Source: Candidatus Saccharimonadota bacterium
Lineage (GTDB): Bacteria > Patescibacteriota > Saccharimonadia > Saccharimonadales > Saccharimonadaceae
Direction: 5' to 3'
Length of the DNA: 42,513 bases
Assembly: GCA_017514045.1 (NCBI GenBank)
Contig: JAFWLS010000017.1
Coordinates: forward strand, 1-42,513
Below, one piece after another: positions 32,243 through 38,786 of the stretch. The position numbers and the translations under genes are program-made. The number at the start of each line of letters is the position of its first letter. The stretch's first letter is position 1. A model generated the notes under the pieces. That model saw only the letters and a program-made list of their open reading frames with translations. It was not told where the DNA came from and did not search any database.

Positions 32243-33616
32243 ATGAGTAAAAAGTTTGACTACGATGTAATCGTCATTGGTTCTGGGCCCGCCGGAGCCT
32301 CAGCCGCATTAGCTTCTGCGAACGCCGGACTCAAAACGGCCATTGTCGAAAAGGACAAATGGGGAGGATCTAGCCTCAATCATTCCGACATTCCATCTAA
32401 GGCTCTCTTTGAATTTTCGCACCTTTATCGCAAGGCTCTTGACGGTGCCCGTCTCGGTATTTCTAGTGCCACACTTCGTTACAATTATCCTACCGCTCAG
32501 AGCTGGAAATCTCTCGTCATGCGCCGAGCTGGTGCCGGCTCCAAAAAAATCTTTGAATCTGCCAAAATCGCATGCTTCTCTGGCTTTGCCTCATTTCTTT
32601 CACCATATGAACTCGCCGTCAAGGATCAAGTTATATCAGCACCTAAATTCGTTATTGCAACCGGTGGCAAACTAAACTCCGGCGACATTTCAGGCATCGA
32701 ATCTGTTGTTTGTCTTACTCCATCAGATGCTTTTAGCCTTACCAGGCCTCCCAAATCCGTTTTTGTCGTCGGCGGAGGAAGTACTGGCGTAGAACTTGCT
32801 AATTATTTCGCCGAATTAGGGTCGCAAGTTACTCTAGGGGAATTGGCTAATCGCATTCTTCCAAAAGAGGACAAGGAAGTTAGCGAAATCCTCACGCGTT
32901 ATTTTGAGAACCGCCTTCATATGAAGATTCTGACAAGCTCTCGCGTGGTTGCCGTAGAAAGAAGTTCTAAACCCGGCCTTCAAAAAGTTGTTTTCCGCCG
33001 TGGCGGCCAAGAGAAAACAACTGAAGTAGCCGCCATTATTCTCGCTACTGGAAGCCGCCCAGCCACTAATCTCGGTTTGGAAAATGCAGGTGTCTCTTAT
33101 GATACCGATGGCATACACGTTGATGATAATCTTAGGACTAAGATTAAACACATCTACGCCGCAGGCGATTGTCTAGGTGGAGAATCATCCGCCGAACGAT
33201 CTGCCTACGAGGGTACGCTTGCCGCTATGAACCTGATTGGTAAATCTAAAACACCGAGAAATTACAATGGCTTTATTCGCATTACCGACACGTATCCGTC
33301 TGTTGCCACTGTTGGTCTCACCGAAGAAGAATGTATCGCGAAACGCATCTCATATAAGAGATCCCTCCTTCCGCTTTCCACCGTATCAGCATCCAACACA
33401 AGCGACTTTACTTTAGGACTTGCTAAAGTACTTGTCGATTCTAAGGATAGAATTCTAGGAGGAACCATCGTCTGTCCCGAAGCTGCGTTAGTCGTTCAGG
33501 AATTAGCCATGGCTATTCGTCACAAGCTTACTGCTACCGAGCTTGCCTCTATCCCTCACGTCTCGTCTTCATGGTCTGAAGTTGTCCGTCTCGCCTCTAG
33601 TAAACTGGCGAAGTAG
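32243..33616 (+). CDS. dihydrolipoamide-dehydrogenase-like flavoprotein lacking the redox disulfide
   Basis: A 457-residue protein of the Lpd/glutathione-reductase fold. The FAD site VIVIGSGPAGASAAL (residues 9-23), the NAD site VFVVGGGSTGVELANYF (about 174-190) and the second FAD segment YAAGDCLG are intact. The redox motif GGTCLNVGCIPSK is changed to GGSSLNHSDIPSK, so both cysteines are missing (S44, D49). At the C-terminus the HAHPTLSE dyad reads HVSSSWSE, so the catalytic histidine is lost (S441). It cannot act as a disulfide reductase by the usual route, though it should still bind FAD and NAD(P)H. It is the last gene of the operon starting at 31290. Confidence 0.85.
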   Translation: MSKKFDYDVIVIGSGPAGASAALASANAGLKTAIVEKDKWGGSSLNHSDIPSKALFEFSHLYRKALDGARLGISSATLRYNYPTAQSWKSLVMRRAGAGSKKIFESAKIACFSGFASFLSPYELAVKDQVISAPKFVIATGGKLNSGDISGIESVVCLTPSDAFSLTRPPKSVFVVGGGSTGVELANYFAELGSQVTLGELANRILPKEDKEVSEILTRYFENRLHMKILTSSRVVAVERSSKPGLQKVVFRRGGQEKTTEVAAIILATGSRPATNLGLENAGVSYDTDGIHVDDNLRTKIKHIYAAGDCLGGESSAERSAYEGTLAAMNLIGKSKTPRNYNGFIRITDTYPSVATVGLTEEECIAKRISYKRSLLPLSTVSASNTSDFTLGLAKVLVDSKDRILGGTIVCPEAALVVQELAMAIRHKLTATELASIPHVSSSWSEVVRLASSKLAK

Positions 33617-34287: not shown

Positions 34288-36180
34288 ATGTCAAAAATTA
34301 TAGGTATTGACCTTGGCACTACCAACAGTGCCTTTGCATACATGGTAGCCGGTCAGCCAGAAGTCATCACAAACGCCGAAGGTGATCGCACCACCCCGTC
34401 CGTAGTCGCCGTTACAAAAAAGGGCGACCGTCTCGTTGGCAAAATTGCCCAACGTCAGCGTGTCACTAACCCAAAGAATACAATCTATGGTATTAAGCGT
34501 CTCATTGGTCGCAAATACAACGATAAAGAAGTTCAAAAAGACCTCGACATTATGCCGTACAAGATTGTCGAAAAAGGCCACGGTGTCGCTGTTGAAATGG
34601 ACGACAAGACCTACACTCCAGAGCAGATTTCTGCTATGGTTCTTTCCAAGATTAAGGCCGATGCTGAGGCTTTCCTTGGCGAAAAAGTAACCGAAGCTAT
34701 TATCACTGTCCCAGCCTACTTTGACGATTCTCAACGTCAGGCTACCAAGGATGCTGGTAAGATTGCCGGTCTTGAAGTTAAGCGCATTATCCCGGAGCCG
34801 ACCGCAGCTGCTCTTGCCTATGGTCTTAACAAGAAGGACAACGAAAAAATTGCTGTCTTCGATCTCGGCGGCGGTACTTTCGATATTTCTATTCTTGAAC
34901 TTGGCGATGGCGTATTCGAAGTAAAAGCCACTAATGGTGATACTCATCTCGGTGGTGAAGACTTCGATAATATTATCGTCAACTTCCTTTGCGACGAATT
35001 CAAGAAAGAGTCTGGTATCGACATCAAGAACGAGCCGTCTGCCATGCAGCGTATCAAAGACGAAGCCGAAAAAGCCAAGAAGGAACTATCTTCAACGACA
35101 TCCGTCGAAATCAACCTACCATTCCTTACTGCCGACGCCGATGGTCCAAAGCACTTCGAATATACTTTGACCCGTGCAAAGCTCGAAGAGCTTGTAGCTG
35201 ACCTCCTCGATCGTCTCGAAGGACCAGTCAAGAATGCTTTGAAGGATGCCAAACTCAAGACTACCGATATTGACGAAATCGTTATGGTCGGTGGTATGAC
35301 CCGCATGCCGGCCGTCGTCGAAAAAGTTAAGAAAATTTTCGGTAAAGATCCGATGCAGGGCGTTAACCCAGATGAGGTTGTTGCTGTGGGCGCTGCCATT
35401 GAAGGCGGTGTTCTCCAGGGCGACGTCAAAGACGTGCTTCTTCTCGATGTCACCCCACTTTCCCTTGGTATCGAAACCATGGGCGGTGTCTGCACTAAAC
35501 TTATTGAACGCAACACTACCATCCCGACTTCTAAGTCTCAAGTCTTCTCCACGGCTTCCGATAACCAGCCACAAGTTGAGATTCACGTCCTCCAAGGCGA
35601 ACGCGAGTTTGCTCAGGACAACAAATCTCTCGGTCGCTTCATTCTCGACGGTATTGCCCCAGCTCCACGCGGCATCCCACAGATCGAAGTCACCTTCAAC
35701 CTTGACGCCAACGGCATTCTAAATGTTACCGCCAAAGACAAGGGAACTGGCAAGGAACAGTCCATTACTATTACCAACTCTGGCAATATGAGCAAAGAAG
35801 ATATTGAGAAGGCCCAAAAAGAGGCTGAGCTCCACGCCGATGAAGACAAGAAGAAACGCGAAGCCACCGACGCTCGCAACATTCTTGAGAACAAAGTCTA
35901 TCAGTTTGAGAAAATGCCTGATGAATACAAAGACAAAATCTCCGACGAAGACAAGGAGACCATCAAAAAGGCTTGCGATGCTGCCAAAGAAGTCTTAAAT
36001 GATGAGACTGCTGACAAAGACAAGCTTGAAGAGGCCACGAAGGATCTCGATAATCGTATTATGCCAATCGGCGCTAAGCTCTATCAATCGGCCAGCTCCG
36101 AAGGCGGCTCTGGATCATCTTCTGACGATAAGAAAGCTGATGATGATGAGCCTGTCGAAGGCGAAGTAGTCGACAAATAA
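34288..36180 (+). CDS. dnaK: molecular chaperone DnaK (Hsp70)
   Basis: A 630-residue DnaK with [13 protein letters not shown] at the N-terminus, [30 protein letters not shown] and [12 protein letters not shown] in the ATPase domain, and the [13 protein letters not shown] linker/substrate-domain segment. The C-terminus is acidic and ends PVEGEVVDK. DnaK binds unfolded proteins in an ATP cycle with DnaJ and GrpE. Neither partner gene is next to it here, unlike the common hrcA-grpE-dnaK-dnaJ order. An AAAGGAGGAAT ribosome binding site and two CIRCE operators precede the gene, so heat-shock control by HrcA is expected. Confidence 0.98.
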
Positions 36181-36948: not shown

Positions 36949-38211
36949 ATGAAAAATCCACGTCTCATTTTGATTACTAACCCGGGATCCAGCTCTCGCA
37001 AATATGCCCTCTATCGAGAAGACGAGCTACTTTGCTCCCTTCACTTTGAATTTGAAGGCCGCAAAGTTGTCTGCACTTTGAAGAAGGCGGATGGTTCCAA
37101 GAAAAAACTCGACAAGACTTACCAAGATCTTAACTCGACCGTTGGTGCTCTCAACGAGATTCTAACTAGCGAAGGCTATCTTGGTGGAGTTTCCAAAATT
37201 GACGCTATCCTTGCTCGTATCGTTGCGACTGGCGAGTACTTTACCGAAGACCATCTTGTCGACAAAGAATGCTTGAAGATGCTCGAGATTGCCAAGAAGC
37301 GTACTCCGCTCCATGTCCCAGTTGTCGCAAACGAGATCGAGGCTTTCGTTAAAGAATTCAAAGGTACCCCAGTTATCGCTATCTCTGATTCGTCTTTCCA
37401 TGCTGCTCGCCCAGATCTCACTGAATACTATGCTATCGACAAAGATCTTGCCGACAAATACGAGATCAAACGCTATGGCGCCCACGGCCTTTCCGTTGGC
37501 TCCATCGTTGGCTATATGACCAAAGAAAACATTTTGCCAGAAAAACTCATTGTTTGTCACTTAGGCTCCGGCTCTTCCATCACTGCCGTCTATAAAGGCC
37601 AATCTCTCGATACAACCATGGGCTATACTCCGCTAGAAGGGCTCATGATGTCCACCCGCTCTGGCTCTATCGACCCAGCTGCGGCACTTGCCATTAAGCG
37701 CGCCATGAAATTCACCGATGACGAAGATCTTGAACAATATCTCAACAAGAAATGTGGTCTTCTTGGCGTTTCTGGACAGACTGATGACATGCGTGAGATT
37801 ATCCGATTGCGCGACGAAGGTGACGATCGTGCTACCTTTGCCCACGCTATGTTCGTTTACCGCATTCAGTCAGAAATTGGTCGCATGGCAGCTTCGCTCG
37901 GTGGTGTTGACGCTATCGTCTTTACTGCTACTATTGGCGAACGCTCCGATGAGATTCGTCGCTGTGTCTCACAAAAGCTTGGCTATCTCGGCTTCGAGCT
38001 TGATAATGCTAAGAATGAAGGCGACCTTCCAAACCGCCATGAGAATATCGCGACCGACACTTCTAAGCCTATCTATGTCATTCGTACCGATGAGTTCGAA
38101 GAAATGATTCGTCGCGCCAAAGTTGTTCTCGATGGCGACAAATGCGAGTGCGGTTGTGGCTGCACCAAAGATGAATGTAATTGCGATGGTTGCAATTGCA
38201 AAACCAAATAA
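36949..38211 (+). CDS. ackA: acetate kinase-like protein with cysteine-rich C-terminal tail
   Basis: A 420-residue ASKHA-fold kinase of the acetate kinase family (acetate + ATP to acetyl phosphate). ITNPGSSSRKYALY, ISDSSFHAARP, YGAHGLSVGSIV, HLGSGSSITAV, TPLEGLMMSTRSGSIDPA and FTATIGERSDEIR match the motifs. It differs from typical enzymes: HLGNG reads HLGSG (the Asn211 position of the Methanosarcina enzyme is Ser) and the HRVVHGGE segment reads ARIVATGE. After the kinase core comes a 24-residue tail with eight cysteines in CxC and CxxC spacings, resembling a metal-binding tail. It should provide ATP from acetyl phosphate if active. It overlaps the next gene by one base (TAATG). Confidence 0.85.
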   Translation: MKNPRLILITNPGSSSRKYALYREDELLCSLHFEFEGRKVVCTLKKADGSKKKLDKTYQDLNSTVGALNEILTSEGYLGGVSKIDAILARIVATGEYFTEDHLVDKECLKMLEIAKKRTPLHVPVVANEIEAFVKEFKGTPVIAISDSSFHAARPDLTEYYAIDKDLADKYEIKRYGAHGLSVGSIVGYMTKENILPEKLIVCHLGSGSSITAVYKGQSLDTTMGYTPLEGLMMSTRSGSIDPAAALAIKRAMKFTDDEDLEQYLNKKCGLLGVSGQTDDMREIIRLRDEGDDRATFAHAMFVYRIQSEIGRMAASLGGVDAIVFTATIGERSDEIRRCVSQKLGYLGFELDNAKNEGDLPNRHENIATDTSKPIYVIRTDEFEEMIRRAKVVLDGDKCECGCGCTKDECNCDGCNCKTK

Positions 38212-38786
38212 TGGAACAAGTATCTAGCCAAGAAACTACAGAAATCCTTCGTCTCGCCGAGCAAGCGCTCGGCGTCACGGGGGATTTTGTGGAGTTAGGT
38301 TGTTATAAAGGCGATACCTCGCTTCTTCTTGCCAAACTCCTAAAGAATCATGGATCTGAGAAAAAACTCTGGCTCTATGATTCATTCGCTGGTCTTCCGC
38401 CAAAGACCAAAGAAGATGTTTCTGTCGCCGGTGACCAGTTTAAAGCTGGCGAGCTGTTCGTATCCAAACGCGAGGTTGTCGAAAAATTCAAACGTGCTGG
38501 CTTGAGGATCCCTATTATCAAAAAAGCATTCTTTGAAGCACTTAGTCCCGAGGCTGATTTGCCAGAAGCTGTTGCTTTTGCCTTCTGTGATGGCGATCTC
38601 TATGCCTCCATTAAGACTTCACTTCGCTTAGTATTACCTAAACTAGCCAAAGAGGGAATCATCATCATTCACGATTACAATAATCCTGAACTCCCTGGTT
38701 CGTCTCGTGCTGTAGACGAATTCTTGCGTGCTCACCCAGAATTCAAGCTAACACAAAAACACACCCTCGCCATCCTCACGAGATAA
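38211..38786 (+). CDS. TylF/MycF-like SAM-dependent methyltransferase
   Basis: A protein of about 191 residues with GDFVELGCYKGDTSLLLA (SAM-binding motif I, about 24-41), LYDSFAGLPP, FAFCDGDLYASIKTSL and IIIIHDYNNPELPGSSRAVDEF. These match the TylF/macrocin O-methyltransferase family, which methylates sugars and other hydroxyls and often sits in glycan loci. The start is placed at 38211, where ATG overlaps the ackA stop; a longer frame from 38181 lies inside ackA. It ends directly against the convergent Clp gene with no spacer. A role in modifying a surface glycan is possible. Confidence 0.85.
   Translation: MEQVSSQETTEILRLAEQALGVTGDFVELGCYKGDTSLLLAKLLKNHGSEKKLWLYDSFAGLPPKTKEDVSVAGDQFKAGELFVSKREVVEKFKRAGLRIPIIKKAFFEALSPEADLPEAVAFAFCDGDLYASIKTSLRLVLPKLAKEGIIIIHDYNNPELPGSSRAVDEFLRAHPEFKLTQKHTLAILTR

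Follow-up and report, generated by a model that had tools for sequence, protein, structure and literature searches.

The acetate kinase (AckA) encoded in the 42,513-nucleotide stretch of Saccharibacteria DNA that was analysed in this work (hereafter the window) ends in a cysteine-rich tail and, judging from the sequence comparisons described below, it is a real, selected and lineage-restricted variant of a known enzyme, metallothionein-like by its anatomy, in which metal binding is putative. Our best reading of these results is that the extension is a lineage-specific metal-thiolate tail of the Zn/Cu type, retained by selection, which would function in the manner of a metallothionein without sharing homology with these proteins. 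Very reduced bacterial genomes seldom keep decorative sequence, and here a central energy enzyme has a metallothionein-like tail that appears to be selected in one lineage and an EF-hand-like loop at the same position in a sister lineage. If these tails bind metal, they would provide a minimal cell with a simple route to metal buffering or control without an extra gene. The locations of the main features are listed in Table 1.

Table 1. Features of the window that are discussed in the text, with their positions.
Feature	Position	Strand	Basis or remark
Disulphide-oxidoreductase-type flavoprotein (pyridine nucleotide-disulphide oxidoreductase)	32243-33616		upstream of ackA
dnaK	34288-36180		upstream of ackA
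ackA, acetate kinase with Cys-rich C-terminal tail (420 aa)	36949..38211	+	PF00871, TIGR00016, structure match
RIVATGE segment (canonical RVVHGGE)	37216..37236	+	HGG replaced but catalytic Arg retained, across the lineage
Ser207, equivalent of M. thermophila Asn211 (PHOSPHATE2 motif, HLGNG to HLGSG)	37567..37569	+	family-wide state
Ser235, equivalent of Gly239 (LOOP3)	37651..37653	+	changed along with Asn211 in most Saccharibacteria acetate kinases
Cys-rich, metallothionein-like tail	38140..38208	+	seven Cys invariant in eight species
TylF-like methyltransferase (191 aa)	38211..38786	+	PF05711, 2.3e-23
Clp-type AAA ATPase		-	beyond the methyltransferase

The ackA product matches the acetate kinase profiles over its whole core and passes the curated cut-offs of both PF00871 (E 4.3e-88; 296 bits against a cut-off of 22) and TIGR00016 (297 bits against 293.4), and it is the single acetate kinase match in this 845-kb genome, which is 98.6% complete. 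Its AlphaFold model also matches acetate kinase structures (1g99, E=4e-36; TM 0.83-0.88), and it shares with the AckA enzymes of known structure (1g99, 2iir, and 4h0p) the fold, the core length and the equivalents of the catalytic residues and of Gly331. It differs from them in its Cys-rich C-terminus and in three core changes common to most Saccharibacteria, viz. Asn211 to Ser, Gly239 to Ser and the loss of HGG. A tail with eight Cys, foreign to normal acetate kinases, had been described in a first-pass annotation of this DNA, and both points were borne out. The translation places the eight Cys within the final 23 residues of the protein (KCECGCGCTKDECNCDGCNCKTK), the previously given length of 24 having included the stop codon (38209-38211), and the tail is missing from the structurally solved acetate kinases to which AckA was aligned. 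It starts directly after the last helix, 16 residues past the equivalent of Glu384.

The density of Cys in this short region is exceptional. Given the 1.5-2.3% Cys of the core of the window AckA and its relatives, a stretch of 23 residues would contain eight or more Cys with a probability of ~1e-9 to 3e-8. Among the other ORFs of the window that encode at least 60 aa, none exceeds five Cys per 23 residues. The genome-wide Cys statistics are based upon pattern and profile searches, and in the whole-genome pattern search the ackA tail alone showed the CxCxxCxC codon pattern in an open frame.

The distribution of the tail was determined by comparing 75 distinct acetate kinases from the genus, by which all 174 genus genomes are covered at high similarity; the named relatives are ruminant-gut MAGs assigned to Candidatus Saccharibacteria. 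In a maximum-likelihood tree based upon 65 AckA cores, from which the tails had been removed, all of the tailed enzymes fell into a single clade with 100/96 support. This clade comprises 11 species, and eight of them, including that of the window, carry the tail. In these species the tail is 23-27 residues long, contains 7-9 Cys and has the conserved array CxCxC...CxCx(2-3)CxC. A further member of the clade (L122) retains a remnant, the stump DKCDCEFEA, and in two others (L120 and L124) the tail is absent. The tail-less orthologues within this clade are 77-94% identical to the window AckA. The tail is also absent from the nearest outgroups (L125 and L126) and from 46 further acetate kinases sampled family-wide. 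The simplest history for this pattern would be one gain and about three losses.

If the tail had been found in this genome only, with a scattered sequence, the first-pass annotation would have ascribed it to drift; this is not what was observed, as homologues in seven other species retain seven of the cysteines, which are under strong purifying selection. An assembly error is rejected because the tailed assemblies are independent of each other, comprising MAGs from water buffalo, sheep, goat and roe deer as well as a separate metaWRAP set. An origin by read-through or gene overlap is also rejected: the ATG of the methyltransferase gene overlaps the ackA stop codon by one base (TAATG), but this overlap occurs with or without the tail and several tailed species are overlap-free. 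A profile of the tail, when searched against the 174 genus genomes, identified the ackA tails and one doubtful match (E=0.05) whose frame contains a stop; no protein besides AckA was matched significantly. In 380 genomes sampled across the phylum it identified the window's own ackA alone. On these results the spread of the tail onto other proteins is rejected, with the proviso that the profile failed to recover two of the eight tails already known and distant tails could escape it.

The Cys residues of the tail have been preserved in a manner that differs from that of their neighbours. Based upon parsimony on the tree, the codons for the seven invariant Cys have undergone 14 synonymous changes between TGC and TGT and no replacements, a pattern with a probability of ~1e-14 to 2e-9 if neutral (transition bias of 1 to 5), whereas the five columns between them show 14 amino acid changes over 21 codon changes. 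As the Cys columns were chosen for being Cys in all species, this comparison is somewhat biased towards selection, but the contrast with the neighbouring columns is large and the margin is one of many orders of magnitude. The codon changes thus indicate that, wherever the tail has been kept, it is the cysteines that selection has maintained. A neutral, slippage-prone and functionless C-terminal extension, resulting from drift or from an expanded CxC repeat, would be consistent with the variable length and non-Cys residues of the tail, with its losses or truncations in L120, L122, and L124, and with the confinement of its homologues to one clade. However, drift would not preserve the Cys alone, and we consider this explanation to be quite improbable. 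Constraint at the RNA level was judged unlikely, as TGC and TGT are freely interchanged at the Cys positions.

The composition of the tails provides information regarding what these cysteines could be selected for. After the first Cys, the tails contain no Phe, Tyr or Trp and they are rich in Asp, Glu, Lys, and Gly. In the AlphaFold model the tail has a pLDDT of ~55, with no predicted fold in the absence of metal; it is predicted to be disordered and makes no evident contacts in the monomer. A disordered, aromatic-free peptide with a fixed Cys array would be best explained as a Zn(II) or Cu(I) thiolate site, and metal binding appears to be the most economical use of invariant CxC/CxxC cysteines that are devoid of aromatic residues. 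Dense CxC/CxxC Cys, few or no aromatic residues, and acidic and Lys residues between the Cys are likewise seen in metallothioneins such as wheat Ec-1 (2kak), the Pseudomonas MT (6gv6) and a vertebrate MT (1m0j). Unlike these small, free-standing proteins, the tail is the in-frame end of an enzyme in all eight species, its metal site is putative and it lacks a significant sequence relationship to them. The tails have no Pfam match, and a search of the tail profile against all PDB sequences yielded three matches, all of which were to the above metallothioneins but none of which was significant (E 1.6-8.7). Homology to any metallothionein family was thus not detected by the Pfam and PDB profile searches, and the resemblance is probably convergent.

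Tails of a comparable kind are known from H. pylori GroES (HspA) and from SlyD, which have Cys/His-rich C-terminal tails that bind and sequester metal (PMC7840056). Like these, the AckA tail is a short unstructured extension that a housekeeping protein of the cytosol carries in a limited set of organisms; it differs in its host protein, in being thiol-only rather than His-rich, and in that its metal binding is putative. The account for which we would claim an intermediate degree of confidence is of a working-type acetate kinase whose Cys tail folds around a soft metal and mainly buffers it. According to this account, AckA would convert phosphoketolase-derived acetyl phosphate into acetate, with formation of ATP, and in one clade of ruminant-gut Saccharibacteria it would have gained a flexible extension at its C-terminus, 23-27 residues long and with a conserved Cys array. 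This peptide would most likely fold around ions of a soft metal, either Zn(II) or Cu(I), with a few ions per tail held as a thiolate cluster, and would amount to a small metallothionein carried by an enzyme of the cytosol. It would probably serve to bind and buffer metal, any effect on the kinase being secondary. The tail itself, its distribution and losses, the selection on its Cys and its restriction to ackA in the genomes searched are shown by the comparisons above; the binding of metal, the identity of the metal and the physiological role are the parts of this explanation that we infer.

Zinc, iron and copper had all been suggested as possible ligands at the outset. The invariant, aromatic-free CxC/CxxC cysteines lend support to metal binding as such, but iron in the form of an iron-sulphur cluster is disfavoured. 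A Cys-rich spacing could in principle ligate such a cluster; however, arrays of the CxCxC type in which 7-9 Cys are packed into about 25 residues are like those of metallothioneins and unlike ferredoxin motifs. Additionally, in a search confined to the SUF route, the core proteins SufB and SufD were missing from all 12 near-complete genomes (that of the window and 11 relatives), while the same search was positive in 14 of 14 controls. This suggests that there is no SUF iron-sulphur assembly in these 12 genomes and, because the SUF core proteins are absent, an iron-sulphur tail becomes less likely; we regard it as extremely improbable. It is also unlikely that the cysteines serve as a store of thiol or sulphur, or as a sponge for peroxide and electrophiles, instead of as metal ligands. 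Cys-rich peptides do react with oxidants and a pyridine nucleotide-disulphide oxidoreductase is encoded upstream in the same syntenic block, but this gene (its best NCBIfam score, to lipoamide dehydrogenase, is below cut-off) is several genes away and has no link to the tail, and a fixed CxC/CxxC spacing at seven positions would be unnecessary for a sulphur store.

A second kind of AckA C-terminus, which is new beyond the first reading of the sequence, was found in a sister clade. In nine species of this clade (L044, L064, L047, L107, L018, L110, L024, L099, and L059), a canonical EF-hand loop of 12 residues, e.g. AILDTDKDGEVSDSELEAAKR, is present right after the same terminal helix. The loops of all nine conform to the consensus DxDxDGx[IVL]xxxE (also written DxDxDGxVxxxE) and keep D1, D/N3, D5, G6, V8, and E12, with variation at the other positions. 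The Pfam EF-hand_1 profile gives this tail 19.6 bits (E=6e-4), which is below the gathering cut-off of 25.4, and in the AlphaFold model of an EF-tailed AckA the loop is flanked by helices 381-396 and 403-409, with a pLDDT below 50 in this region. Among loci not retrieved for EF-hands, the strict loop pattern was found in AckA only. The AckA terminus thus appears to have acquired two chemically different, putative metal-binding tails at the same position. Literature searches on acetate kinase together with EF-hand found no on-topic paper, and those on acetate kinase together with metallothionein found no paper.

These observations bear upon whether the Cys tail could regulate the kinase in response to metal or redox state, through metal binding or a disulphide that alters the activity or oligomeric state of the enzyme. 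Such control, which would make the ATP gained by fermentation depend on the levels of metal or oxidant, is a tentative proposal that we consider possible but somewhat doubtful. As far as the short profile shows, the tail is present only on AckA; it sits directly on the last helix, near the equivalent of Glu384, a conserved residue of the active site; and the EF-hand loop on the same helix in the sister clade would mean that tails of a metal-binding type were gained at least twice on this enzyme. The restriction to AckA and the sister clade's EF-type tails keep regulation alive, and the occurrence of the Cys tail on AckA alone, together with a different, metal-loop-like tail on the sister AckA, hints at an AckA-specific role rather than generic metal storage. 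However, the enzyme can do without the tail, since the tail-less orthologues L120 and L124 and the remnant in L122 are found inside the same clade, and with tail-less enzymes at 77-94% identity to the window AckA any regulation would also have to be dispensable. The predicted disorder of the tail and its lack of evident contacts in the monomer model likewise argue against regulation, and our literature search found no acetate kinase regulation of this kind. Because close orthologues do without the tail, metal buffering is modestly favoured over kinase control. A more speculative possibility, to which we attach little confidence, is that acetate kinase, which may yield much of the fermentative ATP of these minimal-genome symbionts, is fitted with interchangeable tails that sense metal: a thiolate cluster for soft metals in one clade and an EF-type loop for calcium or magnesium in the sister clade. 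Such tails would tune the enzyme to the metal state of the host niche. The existence of both tailed and naturally tail-less orthologues makes these readings easily testable.

Two alterations of the core noted in the first-pass annotation are real: Ser207 aligns with Asn211 of the M. thermophila enzyme, and RVVHGG reads RIVATG. The impression that they make the core unusually divergent does not hold, as both changes are lineage-wide and the catalytic residues are kept. The window AckA retains the equivalents of Asn7, Arg91, His123, Asp148, His180, Arg241, Gly331, and Glu384 (M. thermophila numbering), all of which other than Gly331 were also recorded in almost all of its relatives. Ser occupies the Asn211 site in almost all sampled Saccharibacteria acetate kinases, including those with a normal HGG. 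Of the 46 family loci, 43 have Ser, the others having Gly in two cases and Asn in one, and HGG is lost in nearly all of the Saccharibacteria acetate kinases examined, whether tailed or tail-less. Hence, the lack of the PHOSPHATE2 Asn, which is not strictly defining, does not exclude the window enzyme from the acetate kinases.

In the M. thermophila enzyme Asn211 forms a hydrogen bond with Gly239 and is in contact with the beta-phosphate of ATP, and the N211S change lowers the activity of the enzyme about 200-fold; this position is naturally Ser in Cryptococcus and Thr in Entamoeba, and a change of Gly239 is reported for the latter (PMC4390882). In most Saccharibacteria acetate kinases Gly239 is replaced by Ser or Ala, in a pair with the change of Asn211 to Ser, which suggests a co-adapted loop and not a broken enzyme. 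The view of the Asn-to-Ser change as the mark of a damaged enzyme is therefore corrected, and a defect specific to this gene is rejected, because Ser is standard across Saccharibacteria, as it is in the phosphoketolase-linked fungal enzyme.

The acetate kinase of Cryptococcus, which partners phosphoketolase, prefers the acetate-forming direction (PMC4390882). The Saccharibacteria enzyme appears to resemble that of Cryptococcus neoformans in having a natural Ser at the Asn211 position and a phosphoketolase partner, and it differs in that the fungal enzyme is eukaryotic and in that Gly239 is also changed in Saccharibacteria. We know of no Cys tail on the C. neoformans enzyme. In the genome of the window phosphotransacetylase (PF01515) was not found and phosphoketolase is present; because of the former, acetyl phosphate probably comes from phosphoketolase only, and AckA probably makes ATP from it. 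In another Saccharibacterium, a phosphoketolase gene adjoins that for acetate kinase (PMC6031116). The phosphoketolase of the window's genome is encoded by two overlapping genes in different frames (L160:1471-3617, G000 contig C15), one with XFP_N and the other with XFP and XFP_C. In all genus genomes with a match (22 of 25), the XFP_N ORF is only about 310-400 aa long; hence the split looks genus-wide, the second gene having been seen in the window's genome alone.

The gene order in the window is flavoprotein, DUF5684 protein, dnaK, DUF308 membrane protein, ackA, TylF-like methyltransferase and Clp-type AAA ATPase. At most of the loci of the genus that were checked, ackA is followed by the methyltransferase gene whether or not a tail is present, and their pairing is unrelated to the tail because the pair is kept even at the locus of an AckA type that is only 40% identical.
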